Positions 1,398-24,707 of a DNA stretch of 24,707 nt are shown piece after piece. The stretch spans positions 1 to 24,707 of IMG/VR virus record IMGVR_UViG_3300005935_000131; one strand, given 5' to 3'. Position 1 is the stretch's first letter; every line of letters begins with the position of its first letter. Under the pieces are notes generated by a model, which was not told where the DNA came from, did not search any database, and saw nothing but the letters and a program-made list of their open reading frames with translations. The position numbers were made by a program, and so were the translations under genes. Source of the DNA: a virus.

Positions 1398-1427
1398 AAA
1401 AAACCCGGCCACATTATTGCGACCGGG
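1398..1427 (-). terminator. Intrinsic terminator of the late operon
   Basis: On the minus strand CCCGGTC (1421-1427) pairs with GGCCGGG (1404-1410) across a ten-base loop, followed by six T. It lies about 25 bases after the stop of the outer-membrane protein gene. There is no T run on the plus-strand side, so it works in the late-operon direction only. Confidence 0.9.
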
Positions 1428-1451
1428 CACCGATAAGGAGTTACGAAAACA

Positions 1452-1928
1452 CTAAAGCCGCAGAACGGCTCCAATGGTTATTACAAAATAGCTATATGGA
1501 TTCCCGTCACGGAAAAGAACATCGCCACTTGCGAACATTTCATTCAATTTTACCATTCCTAAATTAAGGCCGATATGCTTTCGTAATTCAAGACCGCCGA
1601 CAAACCCGACGTTTCCGGTTTGTGTTTCATATGTCCCGCCGGTATGCAGGCCGAGTCTCAAGTCCCAAATCGGTAAATCATAGTAATTGATTCCATCCAA
1701 TGTCATTTTATCAAGGGCGAATCCCCAATTCGTTTTGACATATAGAAATCGCCCCTTTAAATTCAGGGTCGTATCAATGTCAAATTCCGTACCAATCAAG
1801 ACACCGAACCCGGGATCTTCCGCATACTGATTAAATGACAAGCCGATTGCGCCAACGGCATCGGCCGCCTGAATATTGCAGGTCAGTAGCATCATTACGA
1901 TAATTGAAAATATTAATATTCTGAACAT
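1452..1928 (-). CDS. Phage-encoded outer-membrane beta-barrel protein (158 aa)
   Basis: A signal peptide (MFRILIFSIIVMMLLTCNIQA, cleavage about residue 21) is followed by a roughly 137-residue domain of alternating polar and hydrophobic residues, such as GFGVLIGTEFDI, LNLKGRFLYVKT, WDLRLGLHTGG, LELRKHIGLNLGMVKL and a final SYFVITIGAVLRL strand. Size and pattern fit a small eight-strand barrel like the Lom/Ail/OmpX group. The ATG overlaps the holin candidate's stop (TAATG), with GGAGGT upstream. Last gene of the late operon, directly before the terminator. Possible roles are superinfection exclusion or receptor change in infected or lysogenic cells, or a part in breaking the outer membrane at lysis. 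The barrel is inferred from strand pattern only, and no sequence family is recognised. Confidence 0.7.
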   Translation of the reverse strand: MFRILIFSIIVMMLLTCNIQAADAVGAIGLSFNQYAEDPGFGVLIGTEFDIDTTLNLKGRFLYVKTNWGFALDKMTLDGINYYDLPIWDLRLGLHTGGTYETQTGNVGFVGGLELRKHIGLNLGMVKLNEMFASGDVLFRDGNPYSYFVITIGAVLRL

Positions 1929-2203
1929 TAAGTACCTCCATTTAATTTAGCTTTGGTTTTGACAACAGCGTGAACACCCTGTGCGGTTGTTCCTATGATA
2001 GCCAATGATGTCATAACTATTGTCTGTGGGTCAAGTCCTGTTATCAAAAAATAGTCCAACAGGAAACCGAACCCGATTGCCAACCCGTTTGAAATAAGGA
2101 AAAATACAAACGGCAAGTCTGATATTTTTCCTTTCAGCCATTGGATGAATGGGACTATCAACCCCCCGCCCACCATTCCAAGTAACGCTTGAAAGTTTTC
2201 CAT
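1928..2203 (-). CDS. Holin candidate (91 aa, three hydrophobic segments)
   Basis: Starts MENFQALLGMVGGGLIVPFI. Hydrophobic segments at about 5-22, 31-54 and 60-80 are followed by a short basic tail (VVKTKAKLNGGT), the layout of a class I-type holin. AGGAG seven bases upstream of the ATG supports the start. It lies one gene after the NlpC/P60 hydrolase, which has no signal peptide and so needs a membrane pore to reach the wall. A holin would fill that role, oligomerising in the inner membrane at the end of infection. Class and family are assigned by topology and position, not by a diagnostic motif. Confidence 0.7.
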   Translation of the reverse strand: MENFQALLGMVGGGLIVPFIQWLKGKISDLPFVFFLISNGLAIGFGFLLDYFLITGLDPQTIVMTSLAIIGTTAQGVHAVVKTKAKLNGGT

Positions 2204-2205
2204 CG

Positions 2206-2376
2206 TTATTCTCCTTTCTGGTTTATACAGTTCTCATATTCAATCTTATAATATTCAGCTTCAAAACGCAACCGCCCGGTTTCAAACCAGAGATAAATTG
2301 ACAGACAGATAAAAATACCAACTGTCAGAAATATCAATACCCTTTTCACCGGGTCAGCGATCATACGCCAGATCAT
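2206..2376 (-). CDS. Single-span membrane protein of the lysis cassette (56 aa)
   Basis: Starts MIWRMIADPVKRVLIFLTVG and ends IEYENCINQKGE. A single hydrophobic span at about 13-30 follows a short basic N-terminus. The rest (FETGRLRFEAEYYKIEYENC) is charged and probably helical. Its ATG overlaps the TGA of the hydrolase gene (ATGA), and its last codons contain the AAAGGAG ribosome site of the holin candidate. The topology predicts cytoplasmic N-terminus and periplasmic C-terminus, which would suit an antiholin, a second holin or a very small inner-membrane spanin. Which one cannot be decided from sequence. Confidence 0.65.
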   Translation of the reverse strand: MIWRMIADPVKRVLIFLTVGIFICLSIYLWFETGRLRFEAEYYKIEYENCINQKGE

Positions 2377-2819
2377 TTGAATAGATTTATGAATCGAGTG
2401 TTTCGATCCGTCCTATAATTTAATGGCACAAAATCAACAAAGGCATTATTCTCGATGGCCGCCTCCTCATCAATGATATCAGAATTTCCCCGCGCTGCCT
2501 GAATTGTGGTTTCCTCGTCAATGCATATCCCGATATGAACCGGCACGCCGCCTTCAAACCAAAAGACCATTGCTCCCCGGGACGGCTCGTGTGATATATT
2601 TTTATCCTCGGTGCTGAATTTATCCCAAAGCATCTGAACATTATAATCTCTCCCCTGATGAATGAACCCCATAGACCGCAGAACATTGCAGACAAAGGCA
2701 GAACAATCAATGCCATTAATCGAGTTACCTCCATATTTATAATATATACCCCACCACCTGTCAGCATATTCAATAAATTTTTGAATTTGTTTTTGTTTTT
2801 TACATTCGTGACAGTTCAT
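2373..2819 (-). CDS. NlpC/P60-family cell-wall hydrolase (endolysin), 148 aa
   Basis: Contains the NlpC/P60 core: YYKYGGNSINGIDCSAFV with candidate nucleophile Cys39, then VPVHIGICID with candidate His95. This family usually cuts peptide bonds in peptidoglycan stems, gamma-D-Glu-diaminopimelate being typical. I prefer the ATG at 2817-2819 (MNCHECKKQK): it has GGAGG five bases upstream and overlaps the previous stop (TAATG). An in-frame ATG four codons earlier at 2831 lacks this. The N-terminus has a CxxC pair. No signal peptide, so release depends on the adjacent holin candidate. Single-domain size with no separate wall-binding module, as is usual for Gram-negative phages. First gene of the lysis cassette. 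Confidence 0.85.
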   Translation of the reverse strand: MNCHECKKQKQIQKFIEYADRWWGIYYKYGGNSINGIDCSAFVCNVLRSMGFIHQGRDYNVQMLWDKFSTEDKNISHEPSRGAMVFWFEGGVPVHIGICIDEETTIQAARGNSDIIDEEAAIENNAFVDFVPLNYRTDRNTRFINLFK

Positions 2820-4891
2820 TAGTCCCTCCATCTTCCGAGTGCATCAAAGGCAACCTGGCTCGTATCATTGACCCAGACGTTCCAAGCATATTTATCAATA
2901 TAGTTTCCGAGCTTATCTTGGAACCTTACCCTGTAATAACTGGTATCGGATAGATTTTCATTTGCATATATCGGGATCTCAAACTGACCATTGACATCGG
3001 CGGTATCGTAAGTGATTTCCTGCATCACCAATGAATCGTGAAAGGTCAGCAAACTATCCTCGGGTACGGCAACCAATCGGAACATGACCAATGCACTATC
3101 ATATCGTTGACCACGCGGATCAATCAGCGTTCCATAAACGACCGCCTTGTTAGCATTGCTGGTATAAGTCCATATTGTATCTGTGAAAACTCCTGAGACG
3201 ACATTGCTGTCAAGGTATGGCGCTAAGCCTGCCGCCGTATGAAAGAACACCCAAGAGGCAGCATCCAGATTGAATTGAGCCAATCCGTTATTATCTGTTA
3301 AATCAAAATAAGGAACGGCCGTCTGCGCATAGTTATTCGCCCAGACCGGAGCCTGCTGAACTGGATCGGTGCCACCGTTGGAACTATCAATGACATAATA
3401 ATTAATTGTGAAAGCGCCATTGCCAGAGCTGCATCCCAATACTGCACGATACAATGCGCCAAAGAAAGAAGCGTTGCCGGTATCAGTTACCAATTTAAAG
3501 AATACACTATCGGCAATATCTCCTTTGTCACTATTAGATATTGATGCAACACCGCCTGCTGTTGATACGAGGGCATCTAAACTATCAAGCAAAACATCAG
3601 CCGCTGATCCGGGGATAGCGGTATATCCATTTAATAATTTACTCCAAACTGAGTCACCAAACTCAGCAGCCAACTCCATACGGTTTGCCAACAATAACGA
3701 ATCAGTATTTCGAGCAAAGTTTTCATCATTCATCATTGCTAATATTTGTGCCGTATCAGTTCCGGTTGCGCCGGAGTCAGATCGGTTTGCTAATGAATCC
3801 CAATATGAATCGCTAAAGTGTGGACCGCGAAATGCTTCAAGTTCAAAATTGGCAGAATCTAATGCCGCAATAAATGAAGCGACAGTCACATCACGCTCAG
3901 CCAGAGTCGATGAATCAGAACCGGTTGCCTTGGTGGTTCCCCATACAATTCGATGAAGCAATCGAGAAATCATTGCCGAATCCACGTTTGCCGCCCCACC
4001 CTGAACATAAGATGCATTCGTCAATGAGTCGCCCATAGTTCCATCCGCAAAAACTGTGTTGAATAATACATTCCAAATGTCTGTAGCTGCTAAGCCTGCC
4101 GCCGTACCTTGCGCGGAGTTAAAAAATTCAGTCGTGAACAGCCATGTCGGGAATGTTTCATTTGTAAAGTCTGCGCTATCAAGATCAAATCCCAATGAAC
4201 TCAACGAGGTCGCCGTCACTAAATATTGAAGCGAGTCACGAATCAAATCAATGTTGGCATCTATACCGTCGTTACCATCGCCGTCAGTGTAGGTAAGAAT
4301 CAAATCAACAATTGCATCGACTGTTGCCAATGCCGCCGATGTCGCCAATGCCGAAACATCTGCCTTATAGTTTGCAGGTGTTGACAGTTCACGGCCGCCA
4401 GTTGTCCAATTGTCTGCTGCACTATGAGTGCTAAAGCCCGTAGCGGTTATCAAATACTGGACCGAATCTCTGATTTTATCAATGTCATTTAATAATTGAG
4501 ACAAAAATGCACCGTCGCCGGTATCGCTTGGCAATCTTGTCTGGAATAAAGAGTCAAGAAAAACGGTAACGCTGGCATATCCGGCCGTATCTAATATGGA
4601 CGGTGTTTTATACACACTTCCAATCGTTTCAGAGTCAGACGATCCAACCGGCCAATAGAAAATCTTTACAAACAGATCTCCAATCTCACTAAGAGTCGGG
4701 ACCGCACCAAAGATCGTTCCATCGTCTTTAAATATCTGAGTCATCTTTAATCGATCCTGATCCCACGCGGTACTATCTTTCCCCATATATATAACGCCAG
4801 AATCAGCAGCTATCGGAGTGCTGAACGTGACCACCTGTGCATCGACATTGCAGGCAATTAACATTAAGAATATTAATAATATCTTTTTCAT
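2819..4891 (-). CDS. Secreted fibre-like protein with C-terminal Ig-like domain (690 aa)
   Basis: The N-terminus MKKILLIFLMLIACNVDAQV is a signal peptide, readable either as a lipoprotein signal (LIAC, Cys14) or as ordinary cleavage at VDA|Q. The body is rich in Asp, Ser, Thr and Ala and has repeated helical units such as DIDKIRDSVQYLITATG and NIDLIRDSLQYLVTATS, typical of elongated, probably trimeric appendages. Residues about 583-690 (AVVYGTLIDPRGQRYDSALV onward, with VNGQFEIPIY) resemble an Ig-like or carboxypeptidase-regulatory-like beta-sandwich. Last of five linked secreted genes; its ATG overlaps the previous TGA and has GAGG upstream. Probably a tail-tip appendage or adhesin. No enzymatic motif seen. 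Confidence 0.75.
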   Translation of the reverse strand: MKKILLIFLMLIACNVDAQVVTFSTPIAADSGVIYMGKDSTAWDQDRLKMTQIFKDDGTIFGAVPTLSEIGDLFVKIFYWPVGSSDSETIGSVYKTPSILDTAGYASVTVFLDSLFQTRLPSDTGDGAFLSQLLNDIDKIRDSVQYLITATGFSTHSAADNWTTGGRELSTPANYKADVSALATSAALATVDAIVDLILTYTDGDGNDGIDANIDLIRDSLQYLVTATSLSSLGFDLDSADFTNETFPTWLFTTEFFNSAQGTAAGLAATDIWNVLFNTVFADGTMGDSLTNASYVQGGAANVDSAMISRLLHRIVWGTTKATGSDSSTLAERDVTVASFIAALDSANFELEAFRGPHFSDSYWDSLANRSDSGATGTDTAQILAMMNDENFARNTDSLLLANRMELAAEFGDSVWSKLLNGYTAIPGSAADVLLDSLDALVSTAGGVASISNSDKGDIADSVFFKLVTDTGNASFFGALYRAVLGCSSGNGAFTINYYVIDSSNGGTDPVQQAPVWANNYAQTAVPYFDLTDNNGLAQFNLDAASWVFFHTAAGLAPYLDSNVVSGVFTDTIWTYTSNANKAVVYGTLIDPRGQRYDSALVMFRLVAVPEDSLLTFHDSLVMQEITYDTADVNGQFEIPIYANENLSDTSYYRVRFQDKLGNYIDKYAWNVWVNDTSQVAFDALGRWRD

Positions 4892-6891
4892 TTTTTAAAC
4901 CTCATCTTTTTTATAATTGCCGCTTCGGTTTCAAAATTAACGGTATCAGCTTTTGTATCCCAACTGACCTCAAGAGTGTCGAAAATTGTTTTACCGTTAT
5001 AAACAACTTGGATTAAAGCTGGATTATAATTAGTTGTATCGGTAGCTGTATTTGATTCATACCAATATTGAAATATCCCTGATGCAATTCCATCAACGCC
5101 CGATGTCGCAAGAAAAGAAGTGTCAGCCGCGACTGAGGTATCAGCTAAATTATTCCAGACGGTCACGGTTGCTCCGGACAACGGAGAACCATTAGACCGA
5201 ACCAATATTTCTAAGGTTGATTGTAACGCAAGTTCCGCCTCTCCCGTCCCAGAAAAGACAATATTTGTATCAGTCGCGCCATTTGTGTAGATACAATCTC
5301 TTCCAACATTATCAGGAGAATCGGAATTATAATACCCCATTGACCACGTTACCGGATCGTGAACAATACCAGAATCAGATGTGGTGTCAATGAATTGCAG
5401 GGTATCTTGATAAAAAGTTATAAATTTGATAGGAAGCCCATTTTCTATGTCGGAACCCCTGACAATAATACTGGAACTAATATAATGATTATTCTGTATT
5501 GTCACCGGAACCTGCGCCTCAGAAGTGAAACTCTGATAGATAGAGGCATTCATGGCACGAGTATCAGTTCCCTCGGTCAACGCCCTTCCTATCACAGTAT
5601 TATTTTCTATGCTGACATGACCATAACCGACATCATTTGGCAATAAGTTAAAGTGTAATACTGCGGCGGTTCTGCCAACTGCGGTAGTAGCGCTTGATGT
5701 ATCGGCGATTCCAATAAACGTATTATTCCTAACAGCAATATAATCACTATGTCCGCCGTCTATTGAACGCAATCTAAAGACTCTGGTTTCACCAAAGGGA
5801 CTCTCACCATTAGGACCATAGTGCGTTTCAATGTAATTGCCGGAAACAATGATTGAATCAGTTTCAGTTCCAGTACAATTTTCAAGACTCATACCCCTGC
5901 CGCCCTGGTGGTCAGGACTTGATGTAATGTGATTATTAAGTATTTTACTTCCCGCATATATCCTGCTTACAAATATTCCGTAACAATTTGTTGAGGATTT
6001 TCCGACTGGACAGATACCCTTTGAAAAACAATCGGTAATAGAATCGCAATTTACTCCCAGTGTATCGGGACAATTGGATGAATCCATGAACTTATATGTC
6101 CCACCATCATAAGGATACCAATAAATATTATTAGTAGTTGTGTCCCAATAAACATTTTGAGCGTCCACCTCTATATTACAGTTTTCAACAAAAACCCTTG
6201 CTTCATTCATGTAAATACCGGCGTGAGGTGTCCTCGCCACAGTAACATTATGTAACTCTAAATTATACTTTCCAGCAGCTGGAGTTTCCTGCACCTGCCC
6301 GAAATATATCGCTATACTACCACCAGCAAAAGATTCTCTGCTTGAATAACTTGTGCTATTATTAGTCCATGTCCCACCATGAAAAACATTATTTACCCCT
6401 GATTGTTCGTTAAATACACAAATAGCATCATGTCCATCCACAGTTACGCCAACCGAATCAAAAGTAACATCGTTCAACCCGTAAGTATTGATGCCAATTT
6501 TTTTTTCGCTAACATCCACACCATCACCTTCATCTGATATAATATGCCCCCCTCGAAAATGAGAGCCATCGCCTCCTCTGATAAATATACCAATAGCCCT
6601 ATCCGATGGAGTCGTGGTTGCGGCAGTATCAAAATATATAACCGTATTACCAAAATCGACATCAACATTAGTGACTTGGTTCATCAAGAGAATATTGTAA
6701 TAATATGATTTACTATCAAAAGAGAATAAAGTCCCACTTCCTACATATATCGTGTCATTGGGATCACTAAATGTAATAGTATCTCCGGTGCTAACGGCAT
6801 AAGGTAAATCGGTCTGTTCAAGAACCACTTGTCCAGCCATTGCACTTGAGGCAAATAATGTTACGACTAATATAGTTAATAAATTTTTCAT
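4888..6891 (-). CDS. Secreted right-handed beta-helix protein, tailspike-like (667 aa)
   Basis: Signal peptide MKNLLTILVVTLFASSAMAG with cleavage near AMA|G (residue 19). Residues about 75-500 are a run of short strands with Asn/Gly turns (FHGGTWTNNSTS, ILNNHITSS, VSGNYIETHYG, VRNNTFIGIAD, IENNTVIGRAL, IQNNHYISSS), the pattern of parallel beta-helices in pectate-lyase-like folds and phage tailspikes. Residues about 555-650 form an Ig-like sandwich (LEILVRSNGSPLSGATVTVW), related in style to the next gene's C-terminus. Tailspike helices often bind or cut surface polysaccharide, but I cannot point to a catalytic site. Coupled by four-base overlaps to the genes on both sides. Confidence 0.75.
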   Translation of the reverse strand: MKNLLTILVVTLFASSAMAGQVVLEQTDLPYAVSTGDTITFSDPNDTIYVGSGTLFSFDSKSYYYNILLMNQVTNVDVDFGNTVIYFDTAATTTPSDRAIGIFIRGGDGSHFRGGHIISDEGDGVDVSEKKIGINTYGLNDVTFDSVGVTVDGHDAICVFNEQSGVNNVFHGGTWTNNSTSYSSRESFAGGSIAIYFGQVQETPAAGKYNLELHNVTVARTPHAGIYMNEARVFVENCNIEVDAQNVYWDTTTNNIYWYPYDGGTYKFMDSSNCPDTLGVNCDSITDCFSKGICPVGKSSTNCYGIFVSRIYAGSKILNNHITSSPDHQGGRGMSLENCTGTETDSIIVSGNYIETHYGPNGESPFGETRVFRLRSIDGGHSDYIAVRNNTFIGIADTSSATTAVGRTAAVLHFNLLPNDVGYGHVSIENNTVIGRALTEGTDTRAMNASIYQSFTSEAQVPVTIQNNHYISSSIIVRGSDIENGLPIKFITFYQDTLQFIDTTSDSGIVHDPVTWSMGYYNSDSPDNVGRDCIYTNGATDTNIVFSGTGEAELALQSTLEILVRSNGSPLSGATVTVWNNLADTSVAADTSFLATSGVDGIASGIFQYWYESNTATDTTNYNPALIQVVYNGKTIFDTLEVSWDTKADTVNFETEAAIIKKMRFKK

Positions 6892-7877
6892 AAATCAATG
6901 CCCCTTAAATTTACAGCCCTCATTTTCTTTGCTCCGGTAAATGATCCTACATAATAAATCCATCCAACTCCATGAGCAACAGCAATTGTATCTGTGGCCG
7001 TCATAGTTATAGTGCCTTTATTATCGACTGCTAAAACATTAATCCTTGTCCCACCGTGCATCTTGAGAACCCCACCGGAGTTAATAGTAATATGAGCAAA
7101 GGTCGTGTCATAGTCGCTGTCAAAATCAGCTCCCTCACAGTCAATCAAACAGTCACCAGTTGAATAAGTTGGCTGAATAACGTGCATTGTATCACCAGTG
7201 GTAATAACTAAACTGTCCTCTTGGGTCGGATTGAAGTATCCTAAATTTTGAGGGTTGTCCCATAAATTGAAACTATCAGTTGCGACCTCACTGGTTGTAT
7301 AAAGATTGTTCGCCCATGTATTAGGAATCCTAACCGTGAAAAATGAGTCAGGATAAAAGGGAATCCAAGTTGGATCATTAAAATATTGTAATACGATATA
7401 TCCTTTATATGGTAGACCCGGTTCTAAATCATAATTTGTCTCATTGACTAAAGTATCAATCCAATGTGAATTTTTGGTGCTGTCGTTAGCACCCAGTGGT
7501 GGTTTTTCAGTGAAATCAATTACTCTTGTTGAATCAGCTGTAAACCATGTCTGCCGGTCAAGAGTATGAACAGAAAATGAGGGGAAATCTTGACACCACC
7601 AAACGCCTTGACTTCCAAATAATTGAGCCATCATATTTGCATCGTCATTATCCCAATCAAGATTTAAACTAAACTGAGATGATGTTATACCAGAAATCGT
7701 TTTCACTAAGTTGGATGGTCGCCGAGATATATGAAACCTATGATGGAAATTATGATACAGTGCATCACCGGGGTCATCGTAACTTGAATATGTTCCCGGA
7801 AAATCAGTCGCTTTCCTGTCGGCTCCAAGCGTTGATACCGCCATCAAGAAAACTAATGTGCATATTAAATATTTCAT
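6888..7877 (-). CDS. Secreted protein of the appendage cluster, unknown fold (329 aa)
   Basis: Signal peptide MKYLICTLVFLMAVSTLGAD (cleavage near residue 19). The mature part is rich in Asp, Thr and aromatic residues. Near the end, HITINSGGVLKMHGGTRINV and VDNKGTITMT look like beta-helix or solenoid rungs, so the C-terminus may be a short helix related to the next gene's domain. The front half (LDWDNDDANMMAQLFGSQG onward) is not recognised. ATGA overlaps on both sides imply co-translation with the neighbouring appendage genes. The ribosome site is weak, so translation probably depends on coupling. Confidence 0.65.
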   Translation of the reverse strand: MKYLICTLVFLMAVSTLGADRKATDFPGTYSSYDDPGDALYHNFHHRFHISRRPSNLVKTISGITSSQFSLNLDWDNDDANMMAQLFGSQGVWWCQDFPSFSVHTLDRQTWFTADSTRVIDFTEKPPLGANDSTKNSHWIDTLVNETNYDLEPGLPYKGYIVLQYFNDPTWIPFYPDSFFTVRIPNTWANNLYTTSEVATDSFNLWDNPQNLGYFNPTQEDSLVITTGDTMHVIQPTYSTGDCLIDCEGADFDSDYDTTFAHITINSGGVLKMHGGTRINVLAVDNKGTITMTATDTIAVAHGVGWIYYVGSFTGAKKMRAVNLRGIDL

Positions 7878-8935
7878 TGTATTATTATCACCCGCGCAAC
7901 ACTTCCACTTACTGCGGCTGTAATATGATGATATACCGTTACATTTATTTGAGTTAATTTTTGAAAACTATGAAAACTAACATCACTTTCCATACCAACC
8001 TCCAAAGCATCTATTTTAGCCACTGACCAAGACCCCGTTGGATGAGCAATTATTTCATTGACTAAAGTATCATATGCTGTGGGCAACTCAGTCGTCTCAT
8101 AAAGTGTGCCATATTCAATATTAGACCCATCATATAAAAATGCTCTCGCTGAGTTGCCTGCAGCTTGTTTATCCGTTTGTATCACAGCCACCACCCTAAC
8201 TGAATCAATAATAGCATCTGCACTTTCTCCTGCATCGGCAACCCAATTTTGTAATCCAAGTGATATTTTTTTGTCCGAAGTTGCGCCAGCCAACGACATA
8301 ATTGTTGTCTCGCCGTCATGCGTAGGCCATTCATCAACTAAATCGTCACAGTCAGTCATCCCGCAGTTCCAAGCAACCTCATATGTTCCTTCGGCATTCG
8401 GCAACAGGACCGTTTCATAACCGGGAGTGTAAACAGCGTAAAAACTGATAGTAACGGCTTGGCCTGCGTCATCATCAGCACTTACTGGCCAAGTGACAAA
8501 GGGCGTTATGAAATTAGTTCTTGTCTCATTAGCCACACCCTCAACATATTTAACTTTAAAACCATCAGACGTAGATTGCGCACTAAGCCAATAATCAGTG
8601 CTTGCCAAGAATCTTATATCTTGAATTACTGACAATGGAATCCATGCTCCACTTTCTCCTAATGTTACTTCGGCAGTTGAATCCATAACTGTGCCCGGTG
8701 TCCCGTCCCCCTCATCACCATAAAAAGATAATTTAACTTCATCGGGAGACGATACATCCCAAGCATATATTACCAATGAGTCTAAAGTTCCGTCAGTTGC
8801 CCCAGACGTTACCTTGCACCATATCATGTTATTGTCATAAGCTCCCTCAAAATAACTAACGGAAGTATTTCCAAATTGTTCTTTTGCCCCAACAATCGAG
8901 AATAATAATAATAATGAAATCAAATATTTAATCAT
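7874..8935 (-). CDS. Secreted virion-type protein with two beta-sandwich domains (353 aa)
   Basis: Signal peptide MIKYLISLLLLFSIVGA (cleavage near residue 17). Residues about 25-170 carry the pattern of a jelly-roll domain seen in many phage and surface proteins: VKLSFYGDEGDGTPGTVMDS, GAWIPLSVIQDIRFLASTDYWLSAQ. Residues about 172-350 follow a second layout common in phage structural proteins: ETVLLPNAEGTYEVAWN, WPTHDGETTIMSL, IIDSVRVVAVIQT, GSWSVAKIDALEVGM, then strands to the end. These modules are usually found in tail-tip or fibre proteins and may bind glycans. A four-base overlap joins it to the 968-aa fibre gene, with GGTGG before the ATG. Confidence 0.7.
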   Translation of the reverse strand: MIKYLISLLLLFSIVGAKEQFGNTSVSYFEGAYDNNMIWCKVTSGATDGTLDSLVIYAWDVSSPDEVKLSFYGDEGDGTPGTVMDSTAEVTLGESGAWIPLSVIQDIRFLASTDYWLSAQSTSDGFKVKYVEGVANETRTNFITPFVTWPVSADDDAGQAVTISFYAVYTPGYETVLLPNAEGTYEVAWNCGMTDCDDLVDEWPTHDGETTIMSLAGATSDKKISLGLQNWVADAGESADAIIDSVRVVAVIQTDKQAAGNSARAFLYDGSNIEYGTLYETTELPTAYDTLVNEIIAHPTGSWSVAKIDALEVGMESDVSFHSFQKLTQINVTVYHHITAAVSGSVARVIIIQ

Positions 8936-11838
8936 TTGTCCACCGTATAATTTATTTTAAATATTGCTTGCGTTATATCATCGTCGGGATCAGCATCAAA
9001 TAAAATATATAAACACTTACCCGCTGGAACAGTTGCATCACCAAAACCAGCTACAACCGTTGTTACTCCCGCTACCGTCGCAGAATCATCTATTACTGCC
9101 GCGCTTGCAAATCCTATTAAGGCATCAGCCCATTTAATTGAATATTCTAATTCGTCTGTAGGATCAGCATTTAATGAAACACTATAACTTACAATTGTGA
9201 TTGCATCCGTTGTGGCTTTATCAAAGCACCATTCATGGTCTAAAGTGTAAAGACCATCAGGATCAGCTAAATTAAAATTATAACTCAATGTGTCGTGTAT
9301 ATTTGTTCTATCAGCAAGTGCTGCCGCTATTTTTGTGCCTAATGTATCAACATCAGTTACCGCTGAGCCAGTGGTATCTATATCTTCCCAACCGATAGTC
9401 GCATCACCAAAATGAGTTGAATCCATTGCCCCATTATCCCAAACCGCAACCGTATCTATAACTTTATTAAGTTGGTCTGTTGTTATTGTAGCACCATCTA
9501 ATATTTCCAACTCGGCTTCAGAAATAACAGCGGCACCGTAAACAAAATGAGAATTTATTACCAGAGAATCGACGTCCATAATAATAGCATCACCAGAATC
9601 AATTCCAGTTTTACCGGGACCACCAAAAGTTTGACTTGTTAAATTTGAGCCAATTGCATAAGTAATATCTCCAGCTCCGTCATTAATACAGATTAAAACA
9701 GTGTCGTTATTTTCATCAATTACATAAGTAGAATCATACCCAACTGCATTATTATCTGATGTCCAAAATTTCTTTACATCGCCTTCTTTAATCACATCGC
9801 CTTTTAAACTATCACCATCATTCAACTGTACTGCATTCATTATTATTCCAGTTGTCGCAACAAGATTTACTGCGGTGGCATCACCTACTCCAGTTATATC
9901 ATTTGTTCCCATTGCAAGATTAGCACCCATTGTTAAAATACCATTAATTTCAGCTACACCATTTACATCCAAACTATCAATATCAACATTGCCATCAAAC
10001 TGAGCTGAATCAGCAATTAGCGTTCCCGTAAAAGATGGATCAACTAATATAGTTGAAGCAAAAGCAGCGGTATCAGATTCCTTTAAATATTGTGTATGAT
10101 CATCATCAGCAAGCCCCGACAGCGCGCCGTGATCTGACGTGGTCGCTCCTACAAATGATGTTGTCCAAGGATATTCAATACTATAAATTCCATCACCTTG
10201 CTTAACTATCACCTTAGCAATAAAAACTCCCGATGAGGCAACAATGCCGGGTAAAGTCGTGACTACCTCCTTACCGAGCGCACCAGCAAGTGAGTATCCT
10301 CCGCTAACAGTAACGGAATCATAGATTGCGACTAATTCGTTATCTGTCATCATATAAATCCAAAATATATTAAATTTGTTAGAAACCAACGTTCTTCTTG
10401 TTCCGTCACCATCATCATAATGAACATCATTTAACATATTTGTATCTAACTTAGTAAAACTACCGGCTCCATTACCCCAATATTGAACCATGCCATCAGT
10501 GAAGCTCGCAACAGATGTTATTACGTTTCTATTGTGCCCTAAATAATAAGCCCCGGCAGTAACATCAATATCATTTGTATCAACATTTGCGCCTGCGCCA
10601 GTAACTATACCAAAACCTCTTTGTAAATTATACAATTCAAATAATCTAAGCGTATTTTTATGACTGTAATTAGAGAAATTTTGCCCGCCTTGCGTGATAT
10701 GCATGTGGTTACCCTCTCGATACACTTTACCCAAAGCAACTTTAGTCGTAAAATCAAGAGTGCTAAAAGCAGCTAATTTTATACTCGGGCTTCCACCATC
10801 ATAGTCAATATAAGACCATAAATCAGTAGAGTCAGTGACTGCTAAATCAACTCCGGCACTAAAATTTAAGAAAACATTCTCGCCAATATCTGAGTTGGTT
10901 TTCTTTAGCACCGCTGTCCCGGAGGTTACATCAAGCTTAGTTGAATCGGTTACATCTTGTGACATTATGCCACCAGATATTATATATGCTGATTGAGTTG
11001 TATTCCACCAATCTGCAAGAGTTTGATATGTGGCACCATCAAGGGTATCGTGAATAATAGTCTCATCTGGTTTTAAAGTTATTTGAATTGCACTATCAAT
11101 TTGATTTATATCTTCTGCCAATACCGCTCTGTTTATATTTGCCAGTATTGACCCTTCAGAAATATGAGCATTTGCTATTGTTCCAACTGGAACAATAAAG
11201 TCACCATTTCCGGGTTTTGTTTCTGTCCACATTCCAGCTGTGATTTCAGACAAAAATATTTGTCCACCTTCGGTTGCACCATCGGTATTCAAGTCCCTTA
11301 TTATACCGTTGGTTGTAATATACCCAAATGTTCCTAATTCAATATCATGTGTAGCAAGACCAATAACTAAAGACGTGGCAACAGCATCAGCTTGAGCTAA
11401 ATCAATAGTTGGTATGTGAGCATTTGTTCCGGTCTGATAAACCAATTCTCCATTATCAATCGCAACATCAGCCTGAACTCTTATCCAGAACTCCTGCCCA
11501 ACTTGCAACGTCACATCTGATTCATCATTATAAAAAGCAAAAGTGTGATTGTCCTTATCATAAAAAAGAAGCCCTTCTTGATGGCTTGGTTCAGTTGTCA
11601 TTAACTCAAAATAAGCATTAAGAACATCGTGAATAGAGTTTGAATCCATTCCAATCGGTCCAAATGTCGTATCACCACCCCTGCTGAAAAAATTCCACGT
11701 GCTATCAATCATCATTGAATCAGGTGGTACAATAATCTGCGCTTGGGCACTCGGGTATATGCCCCACATAACAAAGAAAAATACCGCAATGGTAATCAAC
11801 ATCAATATTTGTCCGGGCGTGTGTTTTTTCAATTTCAT
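8932..11838 (-). CDS. Large tail-fibre protein carrying an N-terminal signal peptide (968 aa)
   Basis: Residues about 569-585 are DHGALSGLADDDHTQYL, a motif typical of phage tail fibres, and about 778-790 is ILDGATITTDQLNKV, another common fibre motif. DGATYQTLADWWNTTQSAY near residue 268 and the DSAQFDGNVDIDSLDVNGVA repeats near 610-640 are also fibre-like. The N-terminus, however, is MKLKKHTPGQ, a hydrophobic stretch (11-28) and PSAQA|Q, a well-formed Sec signal with cleavage near residue 33. GGAG six bases upstream fixes the start. It opens the chain of five secreted appendage genes. Likely the main host-recognition fibre; why it should carry an export signal is unclear. Confidence 0.85.
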   Translation of the reverse strand: MKLKKHTPGQILMLITIAVFFFVMWGIYPSAQAQIIVPPDSMMIDSTWNFFSRGGDTTFGPIGMDSNSIHDVLNAYFELMTTEPSHQEGLLFYDKDNHTFAFYNDESDVTLQVGQEFWIRVQADVAIDNGELVYQTGTNAHIPTIDLAQADAVATSLVIGLATHDIELGTFGYITTNGIIRDLNTDGATEGGQIFLSEITAGMWTETKPGNGDFIVPVGTIANAHISEGSILANINRAVLAEDINQIDSAIQITLKPDETIIHDTLDGATYQTLADWWNTTQSAYIISGGIMSQDVTDSTKLDVTSGTAVLKKTNSDIGENVFLNFSAGVDLAVTDSTDLWSYIDYDGGSPSIKLAAFSTLDFTTKVALGKVYREGNHMHITQGGQNFSNYSHKNTLRLFELYNLQRGFGIVTGAGANVDTNDIDVTAGAYYLGHNRNVITSVASFTDGMVQYWGNGAGSFTKLDTNMLNDVHYDDGDGTRRTLVSNKFNIFWIYMMTDNELVAIYDSVTVSGGYSLAGALGKEVVTTLPGIVASSGVFIAKVIVKQGDGIYSIEYPWTTSFVGATTSDHGALSGLADDDHTQYLKESDTAAFASTILVDPSFTGTLIADSAQFDGNVDIDSLDVNGVAEINGILTMGANLAMGTNDITGVGDATAVNLVATTGIIMNAVQLNDGDSLKGDVIKEGDVKKFWTSDNNAVGYDSTYVIDENNDTVLICINDGAGDITYAIGSNLTSQTFGGPGKTGIDSGDAIIMDVDSLVINSHFVYGAAVISEAELEILDGATITTDQLNKVIDTVAVWDNGAMDSTHFGDATIGWEDIDTTGSAVTDVDTLGTKIAAALADRTNIHDTLSYNFNLADPDGLYTLDHEWCFDKATTDAITIVSYSVSLNADPTDELEYSIKWADALIGFASAAVIDDSATVAGVTTVVAGFGDATVPAGKCLYILFDADPDDDITQAIFKINYTVDK

Positions 11839-12209: not shown

Positions 12210-14486
12210 CTACATGTCATAAAATAAATGAATAGCTTTGATGTATGTTGAATCTAACTTTTGTATGACCTTTGTAATTAAAAATTGCTGACCATCCCAA
12301 GATGGTGCTGTCAGAAATACCGCTTGCAACTGATCATCGAAACTGGCCGCCTCTAATTCAATCCAATCACCGACTTGCAGATCGCAGTTGATGAATCCAA
12401 ATGTTTCGACTTCAATTTGAAAATGTTCATTGGCCCAAAGACCGTCACTGTTTGAATCGCTGCCATCTATTTTCTTAATAAGATGCCGGGCGACGTGCTG
12501 TGCCGATGCCCCGGCGATGTTCGGCCAGTCAGCGTCATATATTACGCCGTCGGCTCTAGTGTTTGTGTAAGTATCATAATCTCGGAAGGTGCCCCCATAT
12601 TCCTGCTGATAACGACTGTTGACATTCAGCGTTTCAACTATCGAGGATAATTTGCTTATTTTTAGTTTGCCCTTAATGAGCTGACTGAATTTTATAATCC
12701 TTGCTGTTGTCGGCCACTGATCGTTCAACGGAATCAACTTGGCCTTGCCTGCTGCCGACATAAAGAAAGTGAATGTCGATTGTTCGCAAATCTTTTTAAT
12801 GACCGTTTGGATATTAGCCCTGTTCGCTTTATGCAGATTCATTCTCATTTTAACTGATGTATTCTCCGCATCGATGAAGCTGGTCAAATCAATGTCAGCA
12901 TCGACGTATGATAATTGAGTCCGTAATAACCATTCAATGATACCGGCCGGATCTTCGATAACATCGCCATCGGCATAATTTGACGACCTGCCCGTGATGT
13001 CGGAGTCGTATTTTAAGCCTTCGCAAGCAACGAAGATTGATGTGTCCAATGCCTCGATTGTTTTTAATATCATCGGGGTTGCCGCTGGACTGGCCGGGAT
13101 ATAAATAGCACCGCGATGATCGGGTGCTATCCTGCCTGCTGATTGGTTCTCTGCCGGAGTGGTGAAATTTCCGGGCCGGAATAATAATCTTGCCCGTAAT
13201 CCATACAATTGGACAACACCGGAAGTAAAATTGTCGGCAACGCCATCGGCCTCTATTGGATAATCAACAGATGCCGAAACTCTAATTGCTTCATATCTGT
13301 CAGGCGTGAGAGCGGTTGGTGTAAGAACTGACCCACTTGCTGTTTGCCAAGTCCCGTCAGCGGTAATATTCATTAAAGTACATGATCCGCTACCATCAAT
13401 GCCTTCAAAATATACGCGGATGAAATGTATAGACGACATCCAACCGGCAAACACTGTCAAGTTTCCTTGAATATTTAAATATGAGCCTCGCTCATAGAAT
13501 AAATTCAAAAATGTATCACCACTGACTATACGAAATACCGCCTCGGCAATCATGACCTCATTATCATCATAAGAATCATATAGTTTTGCAAATGTTGCAT
13601 CGTCACGATCCCATGCATTTTCGGGGTCAATTGGATTTGCATACGCCGCGCTTGAATAATCAGTGTCGTCATTGTCTGATGCATACATATATGCTTTTGC
13701 TGTCGCGCCGGGTGTTGCCGTTCCTCTCGATGAATCATCCGCAGTCAATGTCGGTGAATCATAAATCGCCGGATCATCAAAACCATCCAGACCCAGAAGC
13801 ATTCTTGTGATTGCGTTTAAGACATGATCGGCGATAACACACTTTGGCGGAAATGCAATTTCAGTCGGGACACCAATTGCCAACCCTTTTCCGGTATAAT
13901 CAAAGTCACTCGTATCATCGCCTGAGATTGTAAACTTTCCGTAGACCAATGGAATCGGATCGTTCGCATATTTTGATGGCGTGTCGGCGTAGATGCTCGA
14001 CATGATCGTATTCGGAATAACGATATCATCAAAAACCATTTTGTCAGTCAATTGAATGATAAGGTGTTCGTCATCATAAGCAGGTTCGAGAGCGACAATT
14101 CCTTTAAACCGTTCCAAGCAATTAGTTTCAATGTCAGTCGGGATATCTTTGCCTGCCTGTAAATATATAATAGCCTTACTACCTCGGATATTAAAAAGCA
14201 GGTCCGATAATCTTTGTTTCACGCCGGAAGTATTGACGACAAATGGCAAGTTGTTGAATGTCAATTTGACCTGTGACACTTTCCAAGTCTTCGCCATGAC
14301 ATTAATATCCTCTTTCATGCCAGAGCTTTTTTTGAGTAGTCCATGCACATGCACCGCGCCTAAATCCATATCGGTTTCTGATAGATAATAAGTATTTTCA
14401 AACTGCACTAATTTGACGATAGTGTTATTGATTTGACCTTCACGCCGATAGTAGTCCTCGAAATATGTCGGAGGTATTAAACTCAT
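12210..14486 (-). CDS. Tail hub / tip protein (758 aa)
   Basis: Position after the tape measure and Dit-like genes, together with length, fits a siphovirus tail hub. The N-terminal part (KTWKVSQVKLTFNNLPF, then LFNIRGSKAIIYLQAGKD, then PSKYANDPIPLVYGKFTIS) follows a layout I associate with hub-type minor tail proteins. The middle (about 235-435) looks like an inserted beta-sandwich, with IDPENAWDRDDATFAKLYD and VQLYGLRARLLFRPGNF. The C-terminal part (FSQLIKGKLKISKLSSIVET, GDWIELEAASFDD, DGQQFLITKVIQKL) again has hub-like strands. No lysozyme or peptidase motif seen. Its ATG overlaps the Dit-like gene's TGA and lacks a strong ribosome site, so it is probably translationally coupled. Confidence 0.7.
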   Translation of the reverse strand: MSLIPPTYFEDYYRREGQINNTIVKLVQFENTYYLSETDMDLGAVHVHGLLKKSSGMKEDINVMAKTWKVSQVKLTFNNLPFVVNTSGVKQRLSDLLFNIRGSKAIIYLQAGKDIPTDIETNCLERFKGIVALEPAYDDEHLIIQLTDKMVFDDIVIPNTIMSSIYADTPSKYANDPIPLVYGKFTISGDDTSDFDYTGKGLAIGVPTEIAFPPKCVIADHVLNAITRMLLGLDGFDDPAIYDSPTLTADDSSRGTATPGATAKAYMYASDNDDTDYSSAAYANPIDPENAWDRDDATFAKLYDSYDDNEVMIAEAVFRIVSGDTFLNLFYERGSYLNIQGNLTVFAGWMSSIHFIRVYFEGIDGSGSCTLMNITADGTWQTASGSVLTPTALTPDRYEAIRVSASVDYPIEADGVADNFTSGVVQLYGLRARLLFRPGNFTTPAENQSAGRIAPDHRGAIYIPASPAATPMILKTIEALDTSIFVACEGLKYDSDITGRSSNYADGDVIEDPAGIIEWLLRTQLSYVDADIDLTSFIDAENTSVKMRMNLHKANRANIQTVIKKICEQSTFTFFMSAAGKAKLIPLNDQWPTTARIIKFSQLIKGKLKISKLSSIVETLNVNSRYQQEYGGTFRDYDTYTNTRADGVIYDADWPNIAGASAQHVARHLIKKIDGSDSNSDGLWANEHFQIEVETFGFINCDLQVGDWIELEAASFDDQLQAVFLTAPSWDGQQFLITKVIQKLDSTYIKAIHLFYDM

Positions 14487-21839: not shown

Positions 21840-23351
21840 CTAAGCAGTCACCACACCGAAACCGGTCGCGGTGACTGGTTCGGCAGTTGGATCAAACATA
21901 TTCTTGAAATCACCCCGCCAGTATGCAATGATATCATAGACATCATAATACGGGTTGCGAACGATTTCCATCTGAATAGTACGCCACAATCCAAGCATAT
22001 ATGAACTCTTATGGACCATTTGGAGAATAGACCGGTCATTACCGGCAGCAGCATATATACCAGTGGGATCATAAGTGTCGAGAACAAACTCGGACGTTCT
22101 GACATCGGAGCCATTGATCTTGCCCAGTGTTCCGGCAACAACCGTCGCATTCGGGCCGTACTTATCAATGGTTCTGAATGATGGCATTTCATCAGGGTCA
22201 AGGACATGCAACAGGAATCCGACAATCGACATCAGTTGATAGAAATCGTCCGGGTTAGCAAAATACTTACCACCCTTTGACCTCAACAGGTTCAGATTGG
22301 TTTCTGAGAATGTCGAGAGATCGACCTTACTGGCGGCCAGAGTATCAACACGGAATCCGTTCCAACAATATCGGGCATCGGTCGCTCCGGGTGTGTCGCC
22401 CGAATCAAGACCGGTTCCACCGGCATCATCACCGGAAAGCATCGCCCAATCGATTGACCGAGCAATCGAATTTGATACTTTGCCTTCGATATAATCGATG
22501 ACACTGATAATCAAATCCTCGTCAGCTTCACCGGAGTACTGAGTCCGTCCACGCAACTTTTCAGCGGTGTATGTCTTGTTGGCCGATCCCGGAGTCTGTG
22601 ATACCGCGTCAAAACCGGAAACAAGAGTCCCCCGCTGAGTCACACGGGTTGCCAGAGTATCGGCACCCTCAACCGGCAAGACCTGAATGGAAGCGATCAT
22701 CGGGAATGTCGGATGCATCGGAGCAATGACAAGAGCCTGTCGAACCATCGCCGTCATACGAGCCGAGTAACCGGTTTCCAGATATTCAGCGCCCTCGTCT
22801 GATCCCGCAGTATCGAAAGCGGCCTTTGACATCATCTCATATTCTTTGTGGCATTTCAGGTTATTCATTCGGACTTTTCGTGGTGCAGTGAAATAGCCAG
22901 TTCCGGCATGTTTCGACTGTGCGCACATGATGCCATCAACGAGAATGACCTGATCATGTTTTCGCTGCAATGCATCTATCTGCCCTGCCTTCTCAGCGGA
23001 GAACAGGCTTTTGAATTGAGCGGCAGGCATACTCAGCAAATCCTTGACCTCAAAGGGTATTTCATTGCTGCCGCCGTATGGAATTTTGGATTCGGTTAAC
23101 CGCTGAATTTCTTTGGTCTGGGCATCAATCGCTGACTTGACATCGGTGCCAATCTTCTCGACGTATGCTTTTGTCTCGCCCGCCGTTTTTAATTCCCTTT
23201 CGTGGGCACTTTTCATCGTGGCAAGCAATTGATTGACATCGTCGATTTCCTTCCGAACCTCGCCGACTTTCACCGTCGCCGCCTCTGCCGCTGTCTTTGA
23301 TGCTGCGGCTTCATCCTGCAATTTTTTGATTTCCTCAGGAGTCAGAGACAT
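21840..23351 (-). CDS. Probable internal-start product: scaffold plus major capsid protein (503 aa)
   Basis: An in-frame ATG at residue 192 of the fusion (MSLTPEEIKKLQDEAAASKT) has AAAGGA six bases upstream, stronger than the site of the full-length start. It falls exactly between the protease and scaffold regions, where a separate capsid gene would normally begin. Starting here would give the usual HK97-like delta domain (about 100 residues) followed by the capsid fold. It would let the phage make many capsid subunits for each protease copy. This is predicted from the ribosome site and domain boundary. Confidence 0.65.
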   Translation of the reverse strand: MSLTPEEIKKLQDEAAASKTAAEAATVKVGEVRKEIDDVNQLLATMKSAHERELKTAGETKAYVEKIGTDVKSAIDAQTKEIQRLTESKIPYGGSNEIPFEVKDLLSMPAAQFKSLFSAEKAGQIDALQRKHDQVILVDGIMCAQSKHAGTGYFTAPRKVRMNNLKCHKEYEMMSKAAFDTAGSDEGAEYLETGYSARMTAMVRQALVIAPMHPTFPMIASIQVLPVEGADTLATRVTQRGTLVSGFDAVSQTPGSANKTYTAEKLRGRTQYSGEADEDLIISVIDYIEGKVSNSIARSIDWAMLSGDDAGGTGLDSGDTPGATDARYCWNGFRVDTLAASKVDLSTFSETNLNLLRSKGGKYFANPDDFYQLMSIVGFLLHVLDPDEMPSFRTIDKYGPNATVVAGTLGKINGSDVRTSEFVLDTYDPTGIYAAAGNDRSILQMVHKSSYMLGLWRTIQMEIVRNPYYDVYDIIAYWRGDFKNMFDPTAEPVTATGFGVVTA

Positions 23352-23924
23352 ATTATTTCCTTTCTTGATCTGCACCGACTTATTGTGCATGATACTTTTA
23401 AATTCATTACATTGTAATTCAAGGTCAAGTGCAGCAGCCTCAGTGAAGACCGCTTCAAAATTCATACCCAGATTAACCACTGAGATTTCAGAAATTGATT
23501 CAAATTCATTGATAGTCCGAATTCCCTTTTCTTCGTCAATGCTGTATTTCTTGACGCGGTAGGTATATGAGAATGAATTGATGACACCGGCCTTGACCAG
23601 CATGATAACATCTTTACCCATTGATTCGGTTGGCAATAACTGGATGCTTGCCCATAAGCCTTTATGCTCATCAACTCGCAGTGCCAATGCTTTACCGACC
23701 GGCAGATCATGGTAATTGTGCATGAACAGGACGATAGGCTTTTCTTTATATTTAGCGAGAACCTCGGGAGTGAAAGCCTTCGGCTCAACAATATCCATGC
23801 CAGCGTCCAGATCGGGAGTGCTGACATAGCCTTCAATGATAATCGAGCCGTCGATCTGAGCGGCGGCTTTCGATACATCAAAGTTGAATTGTTTCTTGCC
23901 TTCTATGTCGAACTTCTTTTTCAT
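21840..23924 (-). CDS. Fused HK97-type prohead protease and major capsid protein (694 aa)
   Basis: Residues about 15-165 match the HK97 prohead protease (peptidase S78) layout: IIIEGYVSTPDLD, KPIVLFMHNYHDLPVGK with candidate His69, GVINSFSYTYRV with candidate Ser119, and ISEISVVNLGMNFEA with candidate Glu146. Residues about 195-275 are a coiled-coil scaffold (delta) region, and about 320-694 are the HK97-fold capsid with a long N-arm, e.g. YLETGYSARMTAMVRQALVI and MIASIQVLPVEGAD. Protease, scaffold and capsid are thus one frame. The protease would cut away itself and the scaffold during maturation. The ATG at 23922-23924 has only a weak GGGG upstream, in contrast to a strong internal site at 23351. 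Confidence 0.85.
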   Translation of the reverse strand: MKKKFDIEGKKQFNFDVSKAAAQIDGSIIIEGYVSTPDLDAGMDIVEPKAFTPEVLAKYKEKPIVLFMHNYHDLPVGKALALRVDEHKGLWASIQLLPTESMGKDVIMLVKAGVINSFSYTYRVKKYSIDEEKGIRTINEFESISEISVVNLGMNFEAVFTEAAALDLELQCNEFKSIMHNKSVQIKKGNNMSLTPEEIKKLQDEAAASKTAAEAATVKVGEVRKEIDDVNQLLATMKSAHERELKTAGETKAYVEKIGTDVKSAIDAQTKEIQRLTESKIPYGGSNEIPFEVKDLLSMPAAQFKSLFSAEKAGQIDALQRKHDQVILVDGIMCAQSKHAGTGYFTAPRKVRMNNLKCHKEYEMMSKAAFDTAGSDEGAEYLETGYSARMTAMVRQALVIAPMHPTFPMIASIQVLPVEGADTLATRVTQRGTLVSGFDAVSQTPGSANKTYTAEKLRGRTQYSGEADEDLIISVIDYIEGKVSNSIARSIDWAMLSGDDAGGTGLDSGDTPGATDARYCWNGFRVDTLAASKVDLSTFSETNLNLLRSKGGKYFANPDDFYQLMSIVGFLLHVLDPDEMPSFRTIDKYGPNATVVAGTLGKINGSDVRTSEFVLDTYDPTGIYAAAGNDRSILQMVHKSSYMLGLWRTIQMEIVRNPYYDVYDIIAYWRGDFKNMFDPTAEPVTATGFGVVTA

Positions 23925-23939
23925 GCTGTTACCCCGACG

Positions 23940-24539
23940 CTATCTTTTAGGCTGCATGTGAATACGAATCCGGTAACTGACACCAGCCTCAACTCGCCCG
24001 AGAACGTCGCTTGTATCTGCAATCGCATAATTGAAATTGAAGAATACGTTATCGCCGATACCCGATGTGCCGATTCCAGGTGGCAGTGTGAAAAATACCG
24101 TGTCATAAGATTTGCCGCCGGTATAAACCGTGAGTGATCCCACCTCCAATATAGTTTTGACGGTTCGCCCATAATCATAGGACGTGAACATCGTATACGT
24201 CAGTGAATCTTTTGATGTATCGATGACATCTGCGGCTGACGCACCAGTATCACCAGCGAGGATGATTGTCGATTCAATATAAATATATCCTTCAATGTCA
24301 CCATAGTCGCCTAATCCGGTAAAGAAGAACGGCACCGCCGGGCCAACGGTTGAATCAATGCCCTTAGTTGTCGCGGCCGATCCGGTATCAAGCGGAATCT
24401 TTGCGGTCGTATAGGTCATGCTGTATGGCGGCAATGTCCTCGGCCCGGCCTCGGCATCCTCGACAATATTCATCGAGGCGAAGATCCCAGTTACAACCAA
24501 CATCGCTATCGACGGCCACAGTTTCAGTTTTGATTTCAT
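23940..24539 (-). CDS. Signal-peptide-bearing protein in the head module (199 aa)
   Basis: I start at MKSKLKLWPSIAMLVVTGIF (ATG at 24537-24539) because AAGGA lies six bases upstream. A start five codons earlier, overlapping the previous stop, is possible. A basic end, a hydrophobic stretch and VEDAEA|G make a convincing Sec signal (cleavage near residue 31). The mature part is beta-rich and looks like a single sandwich: EGYIYIESTIILAGDTGAS, SLTYTMFTSYDYGRTVKTIL, NVFFNFNYAIAD, VSYRIRIHMQPKR. It lies between minor head protein and protease-capsid, where a scaffold or head protein is expected. A secreted protein there is odd. Family unknown. Confidence 0.65.
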   Translation of the reverse strand: MKSKLKLWPSIAMLVVTGIFASMNIVEDAEAGPRTLPPYSMTYTTAKIPLDTGSAATTKGIDSTVGPAVPFFFTGLGDYGDIEGYIYIESTIILAGDTGASAADVIDTSKDSLTYTMFTSYDYGRTVKTILEVGSLTVYTGGKSYDTVFFTLPPGIGTSGIGDNVFFNFNYAIADTSDVLGRVEAGVSYRIRIHMQPKR

Positions 24540-24550
24540 CTCAATTCCTT

Positions 24551-24707
24551 TCATTCAAAATGCTCAATCGTAGTGCATCGACAGTTGATTGTCTGTCCGG
24601 GTGAACCGGCAGGGTCTAACGGGTATCGCAATTTATCACCACCTACGGTGAACGGCTCATTAATCTCAACTTTCTGCCCATCGGCGAAAGTATGATCAGG
24701 TCGCGTC
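24551..24707 (-). CDS. C-terminus of a Mu gpF-like minor head / head morphogenesis protein (partial)
   Basis: Fifty-one residues are visible before the stop: TRPDHTFADGQKVEINEPFT, VGGDKLRYPLDPAGSPGQTI, NCRCTTIEHFE. The R.DH....DGQ.v.....F..gG..l.yP.DP..spg..iNCRC pattern is the signature C-terminal end of the phage Mu gpF-like head morphogenesis family, with its conserved Asn-Cys-Arg-Cys. These are minor capsid proteins near the portal. The rest of the gene, and presumably portal and terminase, lie beyond 24707. The stop TGA overlaps a possible ATG of the next gene. Confidence 0.9.
   Translation of the reverse strand, partial: TRPDHTFADGQKVEINEPFTVGGDKLRYPLDPAGSPGQTINCRCTTIEHFE

Follow-up and report, generated by a model that had tools for sequence, protein, structure and literature searches.

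Organization of the late region

The window analysed here, that is, the whole stretch of DNA at its full length, is a linear virus record of 24,707 bases. It holds, all on the minus strand, the late region of a tailed phage that appears to be siphovirus-like. In the order of transcription, the head part leads from the end of an SPP1-gp7-like or portal-fused gene to S204, a prohead protease-capsid fusion, and the connectors; the tail part comprises a tail terminator, a tube-like protein, a tape measure, a Dit-like protein with an F5/8C domain, and a 758-aa hub-like protein; and the region ends with a 116-aa membrane/coiled-coil protein, a five-gene cassette, an NlpC/P60 hydrolase, a holin candidate, a 158-aa protein, and a hairpin. 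The features considered below are the following.

23940..24554, minus strand, S204, 204-aa beta-rich protein, predicted to be exported (signal 24447-24554), directly before the capsid gene
21840..23924, minus strand, prohead protease-major capsid fusion (PF04586 and PF05065, phrog_80), no signal
12210..14486, minus strand, 758-aa tail hub-like protein, no signal, with a 69% identical homologue in the related contig L003
11851..12201, minus strand, 116-aa protein, coiled coil plus a single N-terminal membrane helix, in the interval between hub and cassette, with a homologue in L003 (40% identity)
8932..11838, minus strand, F968, 968-aa fiber protein (signal 11740-11838; shaft modules at aa 64-268 and 330-678)
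7874..8935, minus strand, F353, 353-aa protein (signal 8885-8935) with a weak choice-of-anchor R-like domain
6888..7877, minus strand, F329, 329-aa protein (signal about 7821-7877)
4888..6891, minus strand, F667, 667-aa protein (signal 6835-6891) with a cysteine cluster
2819..4891, minus strand, F690, 690-aa protein (signal 4838-4891), possibly a lipoprotein signal (LIAC)
2373..2831, minus strand, NlpC/P60 hydrolase (Pfam PF00877), endolysin-like, overlapping the last cassette gene
1928..2203, minus strand, 91-aa membrane protein, holin candidate by position and hydrophobicity
1452..1928, minus strand, 158-aa protein with a signal peptide, outer-membrane-barrel-like, at the end of the late block (compare lambda Lom)
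1403..1428, minus strand, terminator-like hairpin (11-pair stem and T run) closing the late gene block, the total number of such sites being not above chance

The cassette lies after the tail hub and before the lysis genes, in the same orientation, which is the usual position of tail fiber genes. The five ORFs of 968, 353, 329, 667, and 690 aa are present on the minus strand where the original prediction had placed them, and the four-base stop/start overlaps that it described were found at all four internal junctions, each of which reads ATGA. The F690 gene additionally overlaps the endolysin gene by 13 bases, and the cassette genes are translationally coupled both to each other and to the endolysin gene.

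Signal peptides of the cassette proteins

All five cassette proteins had been proposed to begin with Sec signal peptides, and a rule-based analysis agrees for five of five. In each N terminus, a short basic n-region leads into an uncharged hydrophobic core, which is followed by an end resembling a signal-peptidase site. With the predicted cleavage site marked (^), the N termini are MKLKKHTPGQILMLITIAVFFFVMWGIYPSAQA^Q for F968, MIKYLISLLLLFSIVGA^KE for F353, MKYLICTLVFLMAVSTLGA^DR for F329, MKNLLTILVVTLFASSAMA^GQ for F667, and MKKILLIFLMLIACNVDA^QV for F690. The rule asks for a charged n-region, an uncharged hydrophobic core, and small residues at positions -3 and -1; it passes 12/12 well-known E. 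coli signals, whereas shuffled N termini pass at 1-7%, and it cannot always separate a cleaved signal from an anchor, as in the case of the 116-aa protein. A strict version misses three of the signals of Cellulophaga phage phi10:1 described below, and the survey of reference phages was made with a relaxed version, which accepts 16/1916 internal methionines taken as false starts (about 1%). Under the relaxed rule, 5/5 cassette proteins pass and none of the core structural genes of the window does, the signal-free set comprising portal, capsid, connector, tube, tape-measure, Dit-like, and hub genes. A strict-rule match in the tape measure was rejected as a marginal alanine/glycine-rich stretch that disappeared under the relaxed rule. 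The ATGA overlaps fix the start codons of four cassette genes, and because codon 50 of F690 was the only internal start in the cassette to have a ribosome-binding-like sequence, signal-less forms are not generally encoded. Sec export of the cassette proteins in the window phage is likely real.

Conservation in related phages

Relatives in viral collections are few and consist of the near-identical L002/L004, the pair L003/L005, L017, and L042, and genome scans for a prophage or a host gave no match. The L003 contig, whose hub is 69% identical to that of the window, stops about 90 bases into the gene that follows its homologue of the 116-aa protein; its F968 homologue starts with MKKLGSFKHYVWTVIIFLVVLWFLYPKAEA, as against MKLKKHTPGQILMLITIAVFFFVMWGIYPSAQA in the window. 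The F968 signal is kept, together with its YPxAxA end, in the one close relative whose contig reaches the gene (1/1). Homologues lacking the hydrophobic N terminus had been named as evidence that would speak against the original prediction, and here the outcome is divided, in that the close relative keeps the signal, whereas distant homologues of the shaft, discussed below, are without it.

The same contigs bear on whether the pattern could be an artefact of wrong starts, of hydrophobic N termini arising by chance, or of a chimeric phage-bacterial assembly. The whole cassette occurs on no independent contig, and the contigs of both relatives end at its left edge, as a chimera might lead one to expect; on the other hand, L003 is an independent contig with the same junction and the same signal, on which ground a contig chimera was rejected, and coupling links the cassette to the endolysin gene. 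Wrong starts and chance are opposed by the four starts fixed by four-base overlaps and by a chance pass of about 1% per start. An artefact of any of these kinds is largely refuted, and we give it almost no credence. The L002 and L003 contigs both end at the hub gene or shortly beyond it (window position about 12210), at the left edge of the cassette, which suggests high variability of the cassette among co-occurring phages.

Homology of the cassette proteins

F968 is a real fiber by sequence homology: in tblastn searches it matched tail fibers of 17 phage records at 25-43% identity over aa 64-268 and 330-678, with a best E value of 1e-21. Its shaft modules recur, for example, in Roseobacter phage CRP-6 (gp61), Pseudomonas phage Rollin, phage zth2-2, and the Manatee Spring phages, the fibers of which have no signal but carry other N-terminal regions. 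Signals are absent from all nine annotated fiber-type proteins in the F968-matching records, and in the eight fiber proteins that could be aligned the shared module is preceded by 39-433 other residues, whereas in F968 it starts about 30 residues after the signal. From this comparison, it looks as if the F968 signal replaces the usual N-terminal region of the fiber.

For F353, F329, F667, and F690, on the other hand, there were zero matches in 50,697 phage records and no match of note in the PDB. Direct searches of IMG/VR for homologues of F968 and F667 found none, and there was no match to a PADLOC model of a known anti-phage defence protein. Residues 43-129 of F353 align with the choice-of-anchor R domain found in surface proteins (NF041539), a partial match of 19.7 bits that lies under the curated cut-off of 30. 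Five cysteines of F667 are clustered in a 30-residue stretch (aa 274-303), which would suit an oxidizing compartment, although this is only suggestive. In F690, a sequence conforming to the lipobox pattern [LVI][ASTVI][GAS]C, LIAC, ends at residue 14, and the type I site VDA^Q comes after it. Fiber-type domains had been predicted throughout the cassette; tail-fiber homology is clear in F968, and F353 gives the sub-threshold match to a bacterial surface-protein domain, whereas the beta-helix of F667 and the folds proposed for F329 and F690 were not confirmed.

Signal-bearing cassettes in reference phages

The relaxed rule was applied to 212 ORFs of at least 250 aa from 13 reference phages, some of them partial, mostly infecting Bacteroidota and including lambda and a Rhodothermus phage. 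Six of the 212 passed. Two of these are membrane proteins outside fiber regions (RM378 and crAss001), and the other four are gp91-gp94 of Cellulophaga phage phi10:1, to which gp95 can be added by eye; apart from phi10:1, no comparable signal-bearing fiber cassette was present in the 13 phages. Signals are enriched in the window relative to the survey (Fisher p about 2e-5), a value that serves as a guide only because related genes are mixed in the test. Flavobacterium phage FCL-2 encodes a 147-aa protein, gp71 (L034 45363-45806), in which a signal peptide is followed by the fiber-type motif VGIATTTPTETLDVNGTARV. Riemerella phage RAP44 gp57 (L031 12853-13545), annotated as "structural protein with Ig domain," has a lipoprotein signal and lies moron-like on the opposite strand, and its annotation as a structural protein may be wrong.

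In phi10:1, gp91-gp95 (NC_021802 41847-48878; L053 5848-12879) are five consecutive fiber/pectate-lyase genes, all with signals, flanked by tail genes and lysis genes in the map position that the cassette occupies in the window. The RefSeq products of gp91-gp94 are, in order, structural protein, virion structural protein, pectate lyase, and tail fiber protein, and each record bears the note "annotation based on experimental MS/MS proteomics analysis," referring to the virion. Phage phi19:1 shows the same for gp101-gp104 (NC_021799 47016-53153; L057), with signals in 4/4 and the MS/MS record note in 4/4. Three or four neighboring signal-bearing genes are also found in each of phi13:2 (gp84/86/87), phi19:3 (gp88-90/94), and Ingeline_1 (gp31-34), which belong to two other families. 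Like the cassette of the window, those of the Cellulophaga phages are runs of large fiber-type genes, nearly all with Sec signals. However, the phages belong to different families and probably differ in host, S204 is an addition in the window phage, and no sequence homology was detected between phi10:1 gp87-gp102 and the window proteins, so the two cases may be convergent. By analogy, the window cassette would work like the Cellulophaga cassettes, common ancestry not being implied.

The phi10:1 gp94 protein also shows how such N termini are distributed. It has tblastn matches in 25 records; its residues 1-42 are 90-93% identical in phi13:2 (about 93% in gp87) and Nekkels_1, and the rest of the protein is unmatched in these two. 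What follows the shared 42 residues in phi13:2 gp87 and Nekkels_1 is a different body with a pectate lyase annotation. The module, made up of the signal and about 22 aa after it, is thus common to otherwise different proteins, as would be expected of a fiber virion-attachment module with exchangeable C termini.

Such conservation would also be compatible with the option of uncleaved N-terminal anchors raised in the original prediction. The hydrophobic N termini would then either anchor the proteins in membranes or serve as peptides for attachment to the virion, and assembly would remain cytoplasmic. The hydrophobic core of F968, at about 18 residues, is long enough to be in line with this. The cores of the other four cassette proteins are short, as is typical of cleaved signals, and a charged n-region followed by such a core would be expected to engage Sec. 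The option is further weakened because signal-peptidase-like sites, with their small residues at -3 and -1, persist across relatives while the cores drift, and we consider it improbable.

A signal-bearing gene in the head module

S204 is a further signal-bearing gene, located in the head module and additional to the five of the original prediction. Homologues with 28-58% identity are encoded in L003 (572-1159), L017 (4083-4694), and L042 (852-1379), and no known homologue was found beyond this group. In all four phages the signal is kept (4/4) and the gene stands immediately before the capsid gene. The alignment contains an invariant Ala, which in three of the four occupies the predicted -1 position; in the L042 homologue, an earlier cleavage site is likelier because Pro follows this residue. 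The order of S204 and capsid is that of the decoration gene D and the capsid gene E in lambda, so S204 sits where a head decoration protein is expected and is a candidate for one. A suspected kinship of S204 with the C terminus of F968 was not supported by comparison. In L042, an unrelated 144-aa gene (400-834), encoding an N-terminal hydrophobic segment, lies between the gp7-like gene and the S204 homologue.

A possible two-compartment assembly

The assembly of tailed phages is taught as entirely cytoplasmic. For the window phage, we lean toward the reading that the cassette proteins and S204 are the outermost parts of the virion, exported by Sec and joined to virions outside the cytoplasm around the time of lysis. 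From the signals and their conservation, the late position and coupling of the genes, the homology of F968, and the Cellulophaga arrangement, we infer the following course of export, cleavage, folding, and attachment. The five cassette proteins, as fibers or adhesins, and S204, as head decoration, would be made late as pre-proteins, exported by the host Sec machinery, and cleaved by signal peptidase I (possibly by signal peptidase II in the case of F690). Folding of the mature proteins would take place in the periplasm or on the cell surface, separately from the head and tail core assembled in the cytoplasm. Lysis would then open the cell and allow the exported parts to bind virions outside the cytoplasm. 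Assembly in two compartments fits the distribution of signals because every predicted outer component has one and every core component is without. Fibers and tailspikes can be added in vitro to finished particles, as established for T4 and P22, and joining at this late stage is therefore physically possible.

Several points weigh against placing the proteins in the virion. The MS/MS evidence is a note in the records of other phages, the genes of which have no homology to those of the window, and virion preparations can contain membrane vesicles. If assembly followed lysis, the parts would be diluted. Signals are absent from the related shafts of other phages, and 4/5 of the proteins have no recognizable virion homologue. 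The proteins could instead be exported without being virion parts and be shown on, or released from, the infected cell late in infection, for example masking receptors against re-adsorption to debris or serving as adhesins or polysaccharide binders. Signals on all five proteins, the possible lipobox of F690, the weak match of F353 to a bacterial surface-protein domain, and the clustered cysteines of F667 would all suit such a function, and exported proteins of late regions do exist in phages, as illustrated by lambda Lom, which adjoins the tail fiber genes, by the exported fiber-motif protein of FCL-2, and by the exported Ig-domain lipoprotein of RAP44. However, the records of phi10:1 and phi19:1 list proteins of comparable cassettes as virion components on the basis of MS/MS, the phage would be left without separate fibers at the usual fiber position, and the placement of S204 at the position of a decoration protein would be unexplained. 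We regard a purely cell-surface role, with the proteins co-purifying with virions, as the main alternative but less likely. Among the three options offered in the original prediction (export followed by joining to the virion, a surface layer on infected cells, and uncleaved anchors), the first is the best supported, through the Cellulophaga arrangement and the MS/MS record notes. The claim that this use of fiber-type genes would be entirely new was too strong, in that the pattern is already present, unremarked, in deposited Cellulophaga genomes; no published description of exported tailed-phage fibers was found in the open-access literature searched.

More tentatively, several unrelated phage groups with Gram-negative hosts may build their particles in two compartments, the head and tail core being made in the cytoplasm, the outer fibers and decorations being exported by Sec to the periplasm or surface, and final assembly taking place outside the cytoplasm at lysis. 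If this is true, the folding of fibers (including disulfides and periplasmic chaperones), the way in which co-infecting phages exchange host range, and the coating of debris and lysed cells would all need to be reconsidered.

Other predicted exported proteins

Lambda Lom and similar outer-membrane morons are signal-bearing and lie in or next to the tail fiber region. They are single small barrel proteins, whereas the window carries a coupled run of large fiber-type genes. The 158-aa gene of the window, for which a homologue search found none, may be of the Lom type. Finally, the left arm of L005 encodes two more small proteins predicted to be exported (1360-1806 and 2570-3064), one of them with a lipoprotein signal.
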